NCBI GenBank assembly: GCA_025453925.1
Contig: JALOPK010000117.1
Span: forward strand, 1 to 16,958
Reading direction: 5' to 3'
Length of the DNA stretch: 16,958 bases
Origin: Candidatus Eiseniibacteriota bacterium
GTDB taxonomy: Bacteria > JAFGKV01
The position numbers were made by a program, and so were the translations under genes. Shown in pieces: positions 7,557 to 16,693 of this stretch (the stretch's first letter is position 1; the number at the start of each line of letters is the position of its first letter). The notes beneath the pieces are model-generated. The model saw only the letters and a list, made by a program, of their open reading frames with translations. It was not told the origin of the DNA and did not search any database.

Positions 7557-10500
7557 TCAGGGTCCGTCGCGGACGACTATCCCACGACCTGACTTCCCGT
7601 CGACCAGAATCCGCAGTGCTTCCTGAAGGCGCACGTGTCTGACCGCGCCATCGAGGTACTCGCTTGCCGCGGGTTGGCCCTGGAGCCAACCCCAGTCGAT
7701 GCACCCATCTCCCCTCCCCTGGTGCACCGTGAGGTAGGCAATGCCGAACGTGGTGAGATTGTCGAAGAAATGGGAGCCGAGAGAGGGCTCTACTTCCAGA
7801 TCCGGGAAGTCGGTTTCGACGATGGCCCGGGCGCTGGAAATCTGATGCCACGCAACGGGAATGCCAAGCCAGGGGTCGCTGGATCCCCACCGGCCGGGAC
7901 CGATGAGCAGGCAGTTTCTCTCCTCCGCCCGCATCACACCGTTGAGACGCTGGAGGATCTCCGCCACGCGACCAGTTTGAGACCGGTCAAGCCGTGACGG
8001 GTCCACCATGATCACATCGCGCACAAACGATGTCCGGCCATGGCCAAGGGCGCACTCCGAGCGCACGAGGATCGGTTGCTCGTCGCCGATGCGATCGAGG
8101 TCGATCTCGTCACCCATTCGCTCCACCACCATTGGACGCACCTGGAGCACGTGGAACTCGTGGGGCGCGGCACGGCCGGCCTGCAGATCCATGGCGAACT
8201 CGATCTCCACAGGCATCCCGAATCCCGCCTCGGTGACCGCCAGAAGACGCTGCATGAGCCGCGGGAGGGAGAAATGGTACCCTTCCAGGAGCCCCGCGAA
8301 GGTCACCAGGGGAATTCCCCCCACGTCCAGGCCGGCCACGATTCGTTCGTTGTCGGGGAAGTAGGAGGAGGCGATGGCATCCGCCTCGCCCGCTCGCAAG
8401 GCATCGACTGTGTCGCAGGCGACGATGTTCGCATCCAGCGCCAGACCGGGGATCATGCCTTCCTGCCCCAGATCGAGGGAAAAGAACCGGTGTTGCGCGG
8501 AGCGGAGGATGTCGGGCACCCGTGAGAACTGGGGTAACACCTCGGGCCGCGCCGGGCAGAATCGAAGACCCTCCCGGCCTTCCACCACGCTCTTGCCGAG
8601 GCCCATTGCCGTCAGGGTCACGCCGTCCTCGGGCCGCATGCCGCGAATCGGGTAGAAGTTGTATGAGAGAGCAACTCCCGAAAACGTGGGGTAGAACCGG
8701 TTCCCTCGGCCGCTCCCAACCAGCCGCTGCACCAAAACAGCCATCCGCTCCTCCTCGACTCGGTGGGGCGTCGTCGCCAGGTACTCCCTGGCCGCTCGAA
8801 AGGCCGTCGAGGAATAGACCACCTTGATGGCCTCGATGAGCTGCGCCAGCCTGACGTCGAGACTGGGGTGATTGTTGGGGAGCATGACCGTGGCGTACAC
8901 CCCCGCGAAGGGCTGCAGCACCGAGTCCTCGAGAATGCTGGACGACCGCACCGCCAGTGGTCCCCGCAAGGAGCGCCGCCAGCTCGGCCCGGCGCCCGTG
9001 GCCGAAGCGACCGCCCCGGAATGCATCCAGCACGTCCTGATCGGTGCGCTCCCCGGGTTCCAGGACCATGGCTTTCAGCTTATTCTCGGCCACGAACTCC
9101 TCGAACACATCGCTGGCCAGCACGACCGTGTCGGGGATGCACACCTGGACGCCCGGAACGCCGATGTCTTCCTGCGCCAGGAGCTTGTGCATGAAGGCAA
9201 GACCCCGGCCCTTCCCTCCCAGTGAACCCTGGCCGATCTTGGCGAACGCTACGAAGTCGTCATACCGCGACACATCGAAATCCGCGATGATGTGCCGCTG
9301 TATCTGCCTGAGGTAGGTGACGAAAGACTCCAGCAGGTACCGGCGGAGATCCGCGATGCTGGGGAACTCCGACACCCGCTTCGGACGGATGAGGGAGGCG
9401 AGCTCGAACTCGGATCTGGCCTTAAGCCACCGGGAGAAATGGTTCCTGCGGGCATGGAAGTCGATCGACTCGTCGGGCACCTGCCGGAGACTGTCCACCA
9501 TTCCTTTGATGGTGCCGGCACGCCCGACTTCGCGGCCGTCGAGCGCACGGAACACGAAGTCGCCGAAACCGAAGTGGGTCATGATGAAATCGCGAATCTC
9601 ATCCAGAAGCCGGGGCGACTCCTTGTGCACGAAAAACGCGCCGGCGGCATGGGCACGCTCTGCGTTTCGAGAATCGGTGGACTGGAGGAGGAGCGGCACG
9701 TCTGGATCCCGCTCTCGAATCCTTCGTGCCAGCTTCAGCCCGGCTTCGCTGTCATACACGCCTTCACAGTGATAGCTGACATCGGAAATCACGCCCAGGA
9801 GGTTTTCCGCGTAGCGTTCATAGAGAGACCAGGCTTCCTCGAACGACTGCGCCAGCAGGATCTTCGGCCGGGCCCGGGTGCGAAGCAACCGGTGGGAAAG
9901 GTTGAAACCTTCGTCCAGCAGACGGCCGGTCTGCCTCGTTACCTCCGCGTAGATCTGGGGGAGAAACGAGGAGAAGAACCGAACTTCGTCCTCCACCAGA
10001 ATAATCACCTGAACCCCGCTCTCCAGCACGTCATGATCCGCATTCTCGCGGTCTTCGACCTGCTTGATCATGGCCAGGAAGACCTTGAGATCGCCTTGCC
10101 AGAGGAAGACCCAGTCGATGACACCCCGGTCCCGCATCCCTTCCAACCGTGGCAGATCCCAGGCATGGGCCGCCAGGAGCGCGACATGTACGCCGGGGTG
10201 CGCCGCTTTCACCTCCCGGCCGAATACTTCGGGTTCCATGTCCCCGATGCGGGAGGTGGTGATGACGAGGTCAAACGGTTTGGCGGCAAGCAGCTCAAGC
10301 GCCTGGCGGCCGCTTCCCGCAAGGGTGAACCGCGGCGCGAATCGGAGGTTCAGCTCGAGATTCCGATACTCCTGGAGCACCAGCTCGGTGAGGTGGCCGT
10401 CTTCCTGGAGGATGAAAGCATCGTACTGCGAGGCAACCATGAGGATCTCCTGCACCCGGAATCCCATCAGGGAGGAGAACTCGTCGGTGTGCATGCCGTA

Positions 10501-10608
10501 GGTCGGGACGGCCATGCGGGCAGCCGGCCGGGGCCTGGTCGCGGGAATGGAGACACAACTGCCGACCACATCATAACGCCGCCCGTGCGCGGCTGCAAGA
10601 CACGCCAT
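7557..10608 (-). CDS. Double-receiver / PEP-synthase-like ATP-binding protein, broken by a one-base frameshift
   Basis: The gene reads in one frame from 10608 to about 8968 and in another from about 8966 to 7557; dropping one base of the GGGG run (8965-8962) gives one 1016-residue protein. Residues ~54-185 look like a receiver domain that has lost its phospho-acceptor (ITTS in place of the Asp). Residues ~199-345 form a second receiver with an acidic E206-D207-E208 cluster, D276 in GVISDVS, S310/T311 and K329. A PEP-synthase/PPDK N-terminal ATP-binding domain follows: GGKGRGLAF (464-472), RSSSILEDS (554-562), EIEFAMD (801-807) and LQVRPM (821-826). A C-terminal region has GPGRWGSSD (903-911) and GSHFF (944-948). 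The swivelling phosphohistidine domain and PEP-binding barrel of true PEP synthase are absent. A GAGGAT element supports the 10608 start, though ATG 10515 (residue 32) is an alternative. Reaction and partner unknown. Confidence 0.85.
8962..8970 (-). other. Frameshift site in the PEP-synthase-like gene
   Basis: The upstream frame reads AELAALL up to 8968, and the downstream frame resumes at GPLAVRSSS from 8963. The total span of 3052 bases is 3 x 1017 + 1, matching one extra base, most simply in the four-base homopolymer 8962-8965. This could be a real mutation, an assembly error or a recoding site. Confidence 0.8.
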
Positions 10609-12362: not shown

Positions 12363-12854
12363 TTAGGTCAGCAGGCCAACAACGATCAGCACGGCCATGG
12401 CGAGCGAGATGGCCAGCCGTACCACGGTGGTGAGCAGGCTTCCGATGCCGACACCGGCAGCAGCCTTGAGCGCCTGACGGGAAGTCCTCCCGGTGAGACG
12501 CTCGACGGCCGCCACGCCGATTAACGGGAGCACGAACACCAGCCACAACGGCCCGGCCAGGAACCCCACTGCCGCCAGCACGGTAGCTGCGATGATCGCC
12601 TTCCGGGACGCTCCGGCGCCGGCGGCGCCCGCGGCCCCCGCGAAGGAGTCGAAGATCAAGGAGACCGCCGTGAGTACCGCCAGGGCGATTATGGTGGGTG
12701 AGCCGTAGAATCGGAACCCCGTGGCCCAGGCATAGCCGGCGCCCGCGGCGAGGATGATCGGAGGGCCCGGCAGCAGCGGCAAGACGGATCCGACAACGCC
12801 CACGGCGGCACTGAGGGCCAGCGGAACTAGCAGCACGATCTCCCACCAGTTCAT
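12363..12854 (-). CDS. DUF456 family small membrane protein
   Basis: This 163-residue hydrophobic protein matches the DUF456 pattern: a first helix ending in GSVLPLLPGPPIILAAGAGYAWATG (glycine/proline hinge at ~22-46), then a helix ending in D69, a glycine-rich stretch with GASRKAI (81-87), and GPLWLVFVLPLIGVAAVERLTGR (101-123). About four or five helices are present and the length is normal for the family. Its biochemical function is not established. The start at 12854 is fixed by AGGAGG (12865-12860) five bases upstream and by a 4-base ATGA overlap with the stop of the GTPase gene. It is the last gene of the operon. A longer in-frame start at 13205 lies within the GTPase gene and codes an arginine-rich extension; rejected. 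Confidence 0.85.
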   Translation of the reverse strand: MNWWEIVLLVPLALSAAVGVVGSVLPLLPGPPIILAAGAGYAWATGFRFYGSPTIIALAVLTAVSLIFDSFAGAAGAAGAGASRKAIIAATVLAAVGFLAGPLWLVFVLPLIGVAAVERLTGRTSRQALKAAAGVGIGSLLTTVVRLAISLAMAVLIVVGLLT

Positions 12855-14521
12855 GACGCCCTCCTGCCGTCGCCGCCCTCGGACCCTGATTGAGCCAATG
12901 TCCCGAGAGCGCGCAGCGCAGACGACACAGCCGCGGCATCTCCCTGCGCACGACGTTCCACGGCTTCGATGGCGCCTCCGTGCAGGGCGAGAGCTTCGGC
13001 CTCGAGACCGGTGAGCACCGCAGCGATTGCGGCCCGCGCCCGCCGGCGGCTGCCCCACCGGAGGAGCCGGTGGACCAGCGTCCACTGCAGCGCGAGCGCA
13101 ACCGCCAGCACGACCGCGGCCCCGGTGAAAGATTCCCACTCCGGAGCCCTGCCGGCCAGCACGCGGCTGACCGTCCGCGCCACCCAGTAAGCAATCCAGG
13201 CCCACGCCGGCAGATCCATCAACAGACTCGACAACCTCCCCGGGGACCCGCTCCGACGCTCCAACTCCCGGCTGACGAGAACCGGCAACCTGGCGGCGAT
13301 CAGCTTCGGCGTAGTCTCCGAACCAAGGTGAGCCACAACCAGCCCGCGCACGACACCCCCGTCCATCCCGCGTTTCGTGGCGGCGAGCACGAAACCCTCG
13401 TGCAGCAGCGCGTCACCGTGCTCGTCGGATAGGACCATCTCGTCAACCTTGGCCCGCAGCCGTGCATCCAGCCGCTCCGCGGTGGTGGCCGAGCCCGTCT
13501 GCGCCAGTCTGCGGAGACCATACGCTATGGTGGCGAACAGGCCGAACACCCCGGTGAACGAACCTCCTCGCGCGGCAGTGATCAGGGAAGTGAGGCCGTC
13601 TTCGGGCATCACGACCCGACGCAGCGATCGCGCCGTCTCGGCGAAAGACATGACCACGGACTCTATACAATCCTCGCGCCAGGCCCGGGCCGCGGTCTCC
13701 CACCCCTCCGGGAGCGCACCGCGCACGAGCCGGGAGGCCAGCGAGGCCCGCTCAGCCATGTTGGACCGGACGATACCTGCCAGGCGGGAGCGATCAAGGC
13801 CCTCGGCAACAAAGGAAACGAGCTCATCAAATCGGTTCGCGGACGAGGTGCTCCCCTCAGTGTGCGGCCTGAGCGCCGCGCGGGCGGAAATCGGGTACAC
13901 GGGCGCCTCGGTGAAGCCCACCGTACGGATCACGCCCCGGAAGTCATCCACGGCAGCCCCATCGGGAAGCTGGTCGATCTTGTTGAAGACGAAGGCGAAC
14001 TCGCGCCCCTCCCGGTAGGCCGCCAGAAGACTCAGCACGCGCGCCGAGACATACTTCTCGCCGCTTACCACCACTAACACCATGTCGGCGAGATCGAGGG
14101 CGCCCTTCAGCATGACGAGGTGGTCCTCGCATGCGCTGTCCGCGTCGGGCGAGTCTATGATGACCTTGCCCTCTAGAGAAGCCCGTTGGTGGCGCACGAG
14201 TTTGACTTCCGGCAGCTCAAGGAGCCATGGGTCATCATCCCTGACATGCAGATATGCCGTGAACCCCGAGGTGGTCGGCCGCCGTTCACCCGTGACCGCC
14301 ACTGGTTCGCCGGCAAGGGCGTTTAGGAGGGTGGACTTGCCGACACCCGTCCCCCCGGCCAGAAGGATGCGGAATGGCCTGAAAGGAGCAGCGGCACCGT
14401 GCTCGATCTGCTCCGCCAGCGCGCGAAGTCCCGCGCCTGCCACTTGCAGACCGGGGAAGACGGATTCGGCGGCCAGGGCCTGCAGGGCCCGGGCAGTGTC
14501 TGCCGATCCCGCGAAGGTCAC
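12851..14521 (-). CDS. Dynamin-like membrane GTPase, second of a tandem pair
   Basis: This 556-residue protein has a GTPase domain at its N-terminus: P-loop GGTGVGKST (56-64) with K62, a switch I threonine at T83/T84, switch II D123-S-P-D instead of the usual DxxG, NKID (180-183) and a G5-like ISA (211-213). The rest is helical, with hydrophobic segments at about 322-338, 436-456 and 465-487; the last two can span the membrane as a hairpin, as in bacterial dynamin-like proteins and other membrane-anchored GTPases. The start is GTG 14521, overlapping the TGA of the upstream GTPase by 4 bases, and there is no better start. It shares DSPDxDS and an EKY motif (155-157) with its neighbour, so the pair probably arose by duplication. 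Membrane fission, fusion or stress-repair roles are known for dynamin-like pairs but are inferred here. Confidence 0.82.
   Translation of the reverse strand: MTFAGSADTARALQALAAESVFPGLQVAGAGLRALAEQIEHGAAAPFRPFRILLAGGTGVGKSTLLNALAGEPVAVTGERRPTTSGFTAYLHVRDDDPWLLELPEVKLVRHQRASLEGKVIIDSPDADSACEDHLVMLKGALDLADMVLVVVSGEKYVSARVLSLLAAYREGREFAFVFNKIDQLPDGAAVDDFRGVIRTVGFTEAPVYPISARAALRPHTEGSTSSANRFDELVSFVAEGLDRSRLAGIVRSNMAERASLASRLVRGALPEGWETAARAWREDCIESVVMSFAETARSLRRVVMPEDGLTSLITAARGGSFTGVFGLFATIAYGLRRLAQTGSATTAERLDARLRAKVDEMVLSDEHGDALLHEGFVLAATKRGMDGGVVRGLVVAHLGSETTPKLIAARLPVLVSRELERRSGSPGRLSSLLMDLPAWAWIAYWVARTVSRVLAGRAPEWESFTGAAVVLAVALALQWTLVHRLLRWGSRRRARAAIAAVLTGLEAEALALHGGAIEAVERRAQGDAAAVSSALRALGTLAQSGSEGGDGRRAS
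12860..12865 (-). promoter_or_regulatory. Shine-Dalgarno AGGAGG for the DUF456 gene
   Basis: AGGAGG on the minus strand, within the end of the GTPase gene, lies 5 bases before the ATG at 12854 and decides this start. Confidence 0.75.
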
Positions 14522-16218
14522 TGGAGCAGCTCCCTGGCGCCCGGGAGCTGGGCACCCACGTCTCGGATCCTCTCTGCGAGCCCCGGCTCGGGCAACGGCA
14601 CGGCTTGCCGCAGGGGAACCATCAGTTCATCGAGAAACCCTCTCAGCGACGCCTCGCGTACATCCAGAAGCCTGGACCGGCAGCGGAGAAAGTAGGGATG
14701 CCCCAGACCTCGCTCCAAGAGGAAGGCCATCAGGCGTTCCACCGCCGGCACCACGGCGAGATCACTCACGTTCAGACCGCCCGTCAGGATCCCGCCAAGG
14801 ACGCCAGCGCCGATCTGCAGGCACGACTTGACGCCGATCAGAAGCCGACGGACGCCGGGCCTGGCGCCGAGGGCGCGGGCGACGGTCTCGCTCTCCTCGG
14901 CCACCCAGCGTTCCACGTCCCGTTCGGCAGCCGCCAGAAATGCATCGATCCGTGGAAGATCGGCGCACTCGGGCATCGAGGCCCGCCATCGGAGGGAGGA
15001 GTCGCGGATCGGCAAAGGCACTCCTTCGAGTCGGCGCGCGAGATCCACCAGGAGGCCGCGGCACACGCCGGTAACCCGCCGCCGCTCCCGTTCGAGCATC
15101 GCCGCCCTGCCCTGATCGTCGGAGTCCCCCAGCCTGTGCCGCGCCCGTCCGACCACGGCGGTCCCCAGTGACCTGACCCCGTCATAGAAGTCATCGACGA
15201 CCGGGATCCTGAACTCCCGCATGAGCCGGCGGAACACCCGGTCGAGTTCCTCGAAACGCTCAGTCCGAACCTGCCTGCGGTAGGCGCGGACGGCCTCATC
15301 CGCGGCGGAAGCCATGCCCTGGTGCAGGTCATCCAGCCACCGATGCTCCTCGTCCACCAACTCCGCCAGACGCTCGAGGTGCATCCTCAGGGCGTGAACC
15401 GATCCGTCAAGAGCGGAGGCCTTCACGGCGACCCTATTGGCGCACCAGCCCTCAATCACCACGCTCAGCGGGGCCGCTTCGTCACGCATATCTGCGCGCC
15501 GCGGAAGAGCCAGGACAGGGGCCTTTCCCGCCACGGGCGTCCAGACGGCCTGGACAAAGTCCTCGAGCGCCTCGCGGCTGTCGGACTTGTTCATCACCGC
15601 GGCCAGCGCGCGACCCAAGCCGGAGGCCTGCCGCAGGAAGCTTCCCACCGCCGCATCGTGGTACTTCTCGGGAGTCGTCACCAGGACCAGCGCGTCCGCC
15701 GCGTGTAGCAGGCGATCCGCCCACGCACGGTTCGGCGCATAGTCACTATCCAGATCGGGAGAGTCGATCAGAAGGCATCCGTCGGGCAGTGAATCTGACG
15801 GGGCGAACACCACCGTGGGGTAGCGGTATGTCGCCGAGCCGGCTGCACCTTCGGCGCGGACCGTCGCGGCGCCGGGGAGTAAGGTTTCCATCCGCTCGAG
15901 CGTAGCGCGGGCACCGCATACCACGGGCGACTTGGTCCCCCGGGCCAACGCCGAGACGACGCTCACGGTCTCCCCGACCAGCAGATTGCATATGGTACTC
16001 TTGCCCACATTGGTGCCGCCCGCAAGCAGCACCAGCAGCGGCCGGTCGCCCGAGGCAAGCGCAAGCTTGTCGCGGATGATGGCCAGGGCAGACTCCCTGA
16101 CCTCGTCAGCCTGGACGGCATGCGCCCCGGTCCTCAGTCGCACGGAGGCCACCAAAGCGGCACACTGCGTGAGCGTTGACGCCGGGGATTCTCGCGGGGC
16201 ACCGGTGGGCTGCTTCAC
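14518..16218 (-). CDS. Dynamin-like GTPase, first of a tandem pair
   Basis: This 566-residue protein has a GTPase domain with P-loop AGGTNVGKST (66-75, K73), switch I T95 in RGTKSP, switch II D152-S-P-D in DSPDLDSD (152-159), and NKSD (210-213). EKY recurs at 184-186. The C-terminal part is mostly helical with charged stretches (for example 281-335 and 371-397), and has one glycine-rich hydrophobic segment at about 459-482 that may touch but perhaps not span the membrane. Start GTG 16218 is 4-base overlapped with the end of the kinase gene; a GGGTGA element upstream is a weak ribosome-binding site. The P-loop falls about 65 residues from the N-terminus, similar to its partner. A hetero-oligomer with the following GTPase is likely by analogy with other tandem bacterial dynamin-like proteins; a TrmE/Era-type GTPase is less likely because of the long helical tail. 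Confidence 0.82.
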   Translation of the reverse strand: MKQPTGAPRESPASTLTQCAALVASVRLRTGAHAVQADEVRESALAIIRDKLALASGDRPLLVLLAGGTNVGKSTICNLLVGETVSVVSALARGTKSPVVCGARATLERMETLLPGAATVRAEGAAGSATYRYPTVVFAPSDSLPDGCLLIDSPDLDSDYAPNRAWADRLLHAADALVLVTTPEKYHDAAVGSFLRQASGLGRALAAVMNKSDSREALEDFVQAVWTPVAGKAPVLALPRRADMRDEAAPLSVVIEGWCANRVAVKASALDGSVHALRMHLERLAELVDEEHRWLDDLHQGMASAADEAVRAYRRQVRTERFEELDRVFRRLMREFRIPVVDDFYDGVRSLGTAVVGRARHRLGDSDDQGRAAMLERERRRVTGVCRGLLVDLARRLEGVPLPIRDSSLRWRASMPECADLPRIDAFLAAAERDVERWVAEESETVARALGARPGVRRLLIGVKSCLQIGAGVLGGILTGGLNVSDLAVVPAVERLMAFLLERGLGHPYFLRCRSRLLDVREASLRGFLDELMVPLRQAVPLPEPGLAERIRDVGAQLPGARELLQ

Positions 16219-16693
16219 AGAATCACCCGTCGACGGTCACACTTACGCGGACGAGGCGACCCCAGGTGCCGAGCGAACCTGATCAGGGCGTACACCGCAA
16301 CAGGCCGGGGCCTCCCCGCATTGCGCTCCGCCCAGGTGCGAAAGGATGTGTCAAAGTAGCCCGCGGTCACGCTGCGTCCCGTCGACGCGGCGATTTCCAG
16401 GTGCTTCCGCCGGGCCGCGGGATCGGCGTTCGCTGCGTCGAAGACGACGTTCGATCCTGAGGCGAGGAGGTTGCTCAGCGCCGTCATTGCCATGCCGAAC
16501 ACCTCATCGTTGCGCTCTTCTCACGTGATCCGAAGGTGAATTCCCGACGAATGGCGTTCATGCATACCACGCGCCTCAGGTCGTGGAGAGCAGCCCATGT
16601 GCGCGTGCCGCTGGCCGGGAGACCCACCAGAATGAGCAGGCGCCCACTAGAAGTCCCCCCGCGGTTCCCGTCGGCCGAGACCGGGGCGCGCAC
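16215..16693 (-). pseudogene. Decayed P-loop kinase (AAA_33 / polynucleotide-kinase-like), frameshifted and Walker A-defective
   Basis: Two overlapping frames together encode one ~159-residue ATP-binding kinase-like protein. The first (from GTG 16693) has LLILVGLPASG, the beginning of a P-loop, then CMNAIRREFTFGS. The second resumes as ERNDEVFGMAM and continues through SNVVFDAANADPAARRKHLE, AGYFDT and RNAGRPRPVAVYALIR, the conserved C-terminal pattern of this family (nucleic-acid or small-molecule kinases). The frame break is near 16515-16522; adding one base restores the frame, and the span of 479 bases is one short of 160 codons. Independently, the Walker A sequence reads GLPASGTRTW where family members have GKST, so the catalytic lysine is lost. 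Its stop still overlaps the downstream GTPase start by 4 bases. A sequencing error could explain the frameshift but not so easily the lysine loss. Confidence 0.7.

Follow-up and report, generated by a model that had tools for sequence, protein, structure and literature searches.

Adjacent genes for two predicted dynamin-like GTPases with a non-canonical G3 motif in Fermentibacterota and Planctomycetota

Two neighbouring genes for homologous GTPases of predicted dynamin-like fold, here called A (upstream) and B (downstream), are a conserved unit, and their proteins share an unusual G3 motif. We consider it likely that A and B form a heterotypic bacterial dynamin-like pair that remodels membrane, B being membrane-inserted and A peripheral, with a DUF456 protein as an accessory at the level of the genus and with the kinase remnant upstream of A uninvolved. 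The window, by which we mean the whole stretch of DNA analysed (16,958 nucleotides), is an entire contig (C95) of one MAG (82% complete, 502 pieces). The Fermentibacterota sample consisted of three genomes, namely that of the window (G000), one from another species of the same genus (G001) and one from the sister genus (G002).

The genes concerned are listed in Table 1. The first-pass annotation, made from the letters of the window, had joined a kinase, two GTPases and a DUF456 protein into one operon through three four-base overlaps of stop and start codons. The overlaps at A/B (GTGA, 14521/14518) and at B/DUF456 (ATGA, 12854/12851) were as described there; the GTGA at 16218 is likewise present, but it is preceded by a disrupted gene. 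The two GTPases, which had been called homologous-looking, were indeed homologous (30% identity over 284 aa, E = 6e-15).

Table 1. Positions of the genes in the window (contig C95) and of the separated homologues in G030
Feature	Contig or locus	Position	Strand	Basis and remarks
GTPase A, predicted dynamin-like, upstream partner	C95	14518..16218	-	ORF, 566 aa; fold prediction; homologues precede B in many genomes
GTPase B, predicted dynamin-like, downstream partner with hydrophobic C-terminal putative membrane segment	C95	12851..14521	-	ORF, 556 aa; fold prediction
DUF456 membrane protein, four hydrophobic segments	C95	12363..12854	-	163 aa; PF04306
N-terminal half of broken AAA_33-type kinase gene	C95	16484..16693	-	Frame differs from that of C-terminal half
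C-terminal half of broken AAA_33-type kinase gene	C95	16215..16502	-	PF13671 match; stop overlaps start of A
A and B homologues of G030	L043 and L044	6651-8360 and 5298-7073		In the tree, each groups with its own subfamily

A preceded B in all three Fermentibacterota genomes, with an overlap of four bases in G001 (where the contig starts inside A) and of one base in the sister genus. The A and B profiles were both searched against the same 392 Planctomycetota genomes; 78 of them, about a fifth of the sample, had a match, and 65 of these 78 had both genes. The genes were adjacent on one strand in 46 Planctomycetota genomes, always in the same A-B order (46/46; at four of these loci the upstream gene scored better to the B profile and was called A by position). 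They were apart in 19 of the 65, some at contig ends and four in single-contig genomes with the genes far from each other. In a wider draw of bacteria, A lay directly before B in seven genomes from six other families. The 9-Mb genome G030 carries its A and B homologues about 15 kb apart on contig C32, with other genes between them. Weaker matches without an A were ordinary single dynamins in the cases inspected (G062 and G085). An all-against-all comparison of the loci found no recurrent third gene, of defence or any other function, around the pair, and most of the apparent neighbour clusters turned out to be shadow frames antisense to A and B. One family of neighbours was seen in five loci.

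The G1 P-loop (GxxxxGKS) is present in both proteins of the window (GGTNVGKS in A and GGTGVGKS in B) and in the relatives where it is readable. The G3 motif reads DSPD in both, and every readable A and B, the further pairs included, has DxPD at this site instead of the canonical DxPG, so that even the general DxxG pattern is lost; the site reads DTPG in two unpaired dynamins that came out of the same searches. Switch I of B is RPTT or a near variant (RRPTT at G2 in the window), and switch I of A is different. At G4, which is NKSD in the A and NKID in the B of the window, the aspartic acid of (T/N)KxD was retained in about 25 of 26 B proteins and in about 4 of 23 A proteins (both counts made by eye). 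In one Planctomycetota subgroup of B (L106-L110), QTHAD or a similar string replaces NKxD at G4, and G3 is CPDPD[TS]. As the G3 glycine is missing in both partners, A-B is a divergent variant and not a canonical member of the dynamins, and with such a G3 the hydrolysis of GTP by A or B is not assured. Judged from these sequences, the motif changes may alter the GTP cycle of the pair.

The structures were predicted with AlphaFold2 from shallow alignments (5-6 sequences), and the mean pLDDT was 76.8 for A and 80.4 for B, with low-confidence stretches in the trunk. Both predicted models have a G domain and a helical neck and trunk, and their N- and C-terminal helices join into a single bundle. 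In Foldseek searches against the PDB, the top matches of the A model were BDLP, the Campylobacter dynamin pair, OPA1, IniA, Fzo1 and mitofusins, and those of the B model were BDLP, IniA, the Campylobacter dynamin pair and mitofusins. The VIA Z score was 20.9 for A against Fzo1 and 21.6 for B against mitofusin 1, over about 300 residues that include the N- and C-terminal helices; below the top few, most rows of the VIA list for A were G domains of unrelated GTPases. Sequence searches of the PDB with the A and B profiles returned only G domains of the Era/Der type and matched no solved dynamin, and thus the dynamin link is drawn from the predicted structure together with weak Dynamin_N matches. 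A search of PHROGs gave nothing useful. The B model has a predicted hydrophobic tip, made up of a helix at residues 429-455 and the first part of the final helix, which is 83 residues long, and the hydrophobicity scan placed a hydrophobic segment of the window's B at about residue 465. At least one strong C-terminal hydrophobic segment was predicted in 25 of 26 B proteins, the remaining one being cut by a contig end, and about half of the B proteins had two; most A proteins had none or a weak glycine-rich one, and a few had a stronger one. The first-pass annotation had suggested that the two dynamin-like GTPases and the DUF456 protein form a membrane-associated machine, and for the two GTPases this proposal gains support from the predicted fold, the predicted membrane segment of B and the pairing of A and B in several families.

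In a tree of 51 proteins, the details of which are not trustworthy (nine rows with less than half of the columns filled, and one very long branch), one branch separated all A proteins from the rest and another separated all B proteins, and the support for the two clades was moderate (74/61 and 83/88). Small clusters are repeated in both halves of the tree (G030, L105 and L111 form one of them), a pattern expected if the partners were inherited together. The topology fits one old duplication, as far as these sequences can indicate.

The supposed kinase upstream of A is broken. A GTG at 16693 opens a frame of 69 codons which contains a P-loop-like stretch and ends with a stop at about 16484, and the AAA_33-like half lies in a different frame (PF13671, E = 4e-9, 37.2 bits, last 92 aa); the stretch 16693-16215 has 479 bases and is not divisible by three. 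The P-loop of the remnant reads GLPASGTRT and lacks the Walker A lysine, so that no GxxxxGK[ST] is found in one open frame, and a composite of the readings of both halves matched a PNKP-type kinase domain weakly. The GC content by codon position is still coding-like in both halves, and any decay would therefore be recent. The frameshift could be explained by a base-call error, the lost lysine not readily so. In 30 genomes (one of the same genus, one of the same family and 28 others), no homologue of the C-terminal half was found. With its frames broken and no homologue in these genomes, the kinase was rejected as a conserved partner of A-B, and the linkage to a small P-loop kinase in the first-pass annotation falls with it. 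A divergent gene for a YchF-like GTPase (L042, 10272-11393) occupies, in the sister genus, the position just upstream of A at which the window has the broken kinase. Elsewhere in the window, on the minus strand at 7557-10608, two overlapping frames each hold part of a PPDK_N (pyruvate phosphate dikinase) domain, and a weak receiver-like match lies close to the N-terminus; this is a second frameshifted gene of the contig, whether the frameshift is real or a base-call error.

The DUF456 assignment is clear (PF04306, 87.6 bits with a cut-off of 29.4, E = 1.2e-24, profile positions 1-138 of 139). In G001 the DUF456 gene begins 9 bases after the end of B, and when the contigs of the window and of G001 were compared, A, B and DUF456 were together despite differing flanks and nothing else matched. 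The genome of the sister genus had no DUF456. The family was present in 147 of the 392 Planctomycetota genomes; in the 32 of them with DUF456 plus A or B, the genes shared a contig in 12, with a nearest distance of about 200 kb. DUF456 was therefore rejected as a general partner: the sister genus lacks it, and in none of the Planctomycetota genomes examined did it lie close to the pair. Within the limits of this sample, its linkage to the pair is a feature of the window's genus (two species) and a local addition, so that the linkage seen by the first-pass annotation held in the other species of the genus but not farther. YqgC, the DUF456 protein of Bacillus subtilis, is encoded in an operon with sodA and has been linked to manganese homeostasis (PMC10888875). 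It belongs to the same Pfam family and is likewise a small multipass membrane protein, but the DUF456 gene of the window follows dynamin-like genes and not sodA, and the manganese link says little about a role beside A-B.

Three other explanations were weighed. That the kinase, both GTPases and DUF456 are one co-translated machine is suggested by the overlapping stop and start codons and by the persistence of A, B and DUF456 in two species with differing flanks, but we regard it as quite improbable, because the kinase is broken and without homologues in the relatives, and DUF456 is lacking in the sister genus and in further genomes that bear the pair. When related genomes were searched for the neighbourhood, as the first-pass annotation had proposed, A-B recurred across families, but DUF456 did not recur beyond the genus and the kinase did not recur at all. 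That annotation had also allowed that the DUF456 gene or either GTPase might usually stand alone and that the gene order might be peculiar to this strain; this proved to be so for DUF456 and the kinase and not for the two GTPases. A role in defence against phages, as a module of the kind of Eleos (LeoA/LeoBC), would agree with the weak matches that PADLOC gave for A and B against LeoA and LeoBC (E 5e-8 to 1e-2) and with the patchy distribution among the sampled Planctomycetota. The matches are, however, partial and mainly to the G domain, as would be so for any dynamin, no match was near full-length, and no defence gene or other neighbour recurs around the pair; we thus judge a defence function unlikely.

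A role in cell division or budding, for example as a replacement of FtsZ in Planctomycetota, is the explanation to which we give very little credence. Planctomycetota are without ftsZ and the mechanism of their budding is unknown (PMC4164004), and FtsZ was not found in four sampled Planctomycetota that bear the pair. However, the genes are restricted to about a fifth of the Planctomycetota sampled, and FtsZ occurs together with the pair in two Fermentibacterota genomes and in G030. FtsZ was not found in the window's own genome, though both relatives carry it, and this absence probably reflects the incompleteness of the assembly.

The preferred explanation, a membrane-remodelling pair of A and B, has precedents. 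Tandem dynamin-like GTPases are known in bacteria, as the first-pass annotation had stated; most bacterial DLPs are encoded as side-by-side gene pairs, and Cj-DLP1/Cj-DLP2 of Campylobacter jejuni form a 2:2 tetramer that tethers membranes (PMC6104087). The Campylobacter pair (5owv, 5oxf) resembles A-B in its adjacent homologous genes and is among the top fold matches of both proteins, but A-B differs from it by the DxPD at G3, the predicted membrane segment in B and an identity of only about 10% in structural alignments. BDLP of Nostoc (2j68, 2j69) and mitofusin/Fzo1 share with the models the G domain, the neck of N- and C-terminal helices and, in B, the hydrophobic tip before the last long helix, but they are single proteins with the canonical DxPG switch and are not encoded as such a pair. 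Mycobacterial IniA (6j72, 6j73), the second-best fold match of B, belongs to another lineage, and no close sequence similarity to it was found. LeoA/LeoBC of Eleos are also a dynamin-like pair with a weak profile match, and differ in the points given above. No description of such dynamins in Planctomycetota or Fermentibacterota was found in the literature searched, outside which most subscription papers lie.

By analogy, A-B most likely operates in the same general way as the Campylobacter pair, with B fixed in the membrane. Like mitofusins and BDLP, B would have its anchor in hydrophobic helices at the end of its helical trunk, and A would be its peripheral partner; the G domains of the two would dimerise, and the binding and hydrolysis of GTP would tether or reshape the membrane. 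The DxPD in both proteins and the loss of the G4 aspartic acid in most A suggest that the hydrolysis cycle is changed, and that B may act as the main GTPase while A may have an activating or regulatory function. DUF456 would be an accessory membrane protein in the window's genus only, and the kinase remnant would have no part. A further-reaching version, which we offer tentatively and consider doubtful though conceivable, is that A-B is a separate dynamin branch marked by the change of glycine to aspartic acid at G3 in both partners. It would be an obligate heterodimer and would run a GTP cycle of its own, in which B binds GTP, the G4-degenerate A is an activator, and the aspartic acid of switch II takes part in catalysis or in sensing of the nucleotide across the interface.

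Paired dynamin-like genes are of a kind already known in bacteria, and the fixed DxPD at G3 is the unusual part. Few cases are known of how work is shared between two unequal G domains of bacterial dynamin pairs, and the Planctomycetota, about a fifth of which carry the family in our sample, have membranes and an FtsZ-less budding that are poorly understood. A fixed change in an otherwise nearly universal GTPase motif would be a natural experiment on the way in which switch II drives the mechanics of dynamins.
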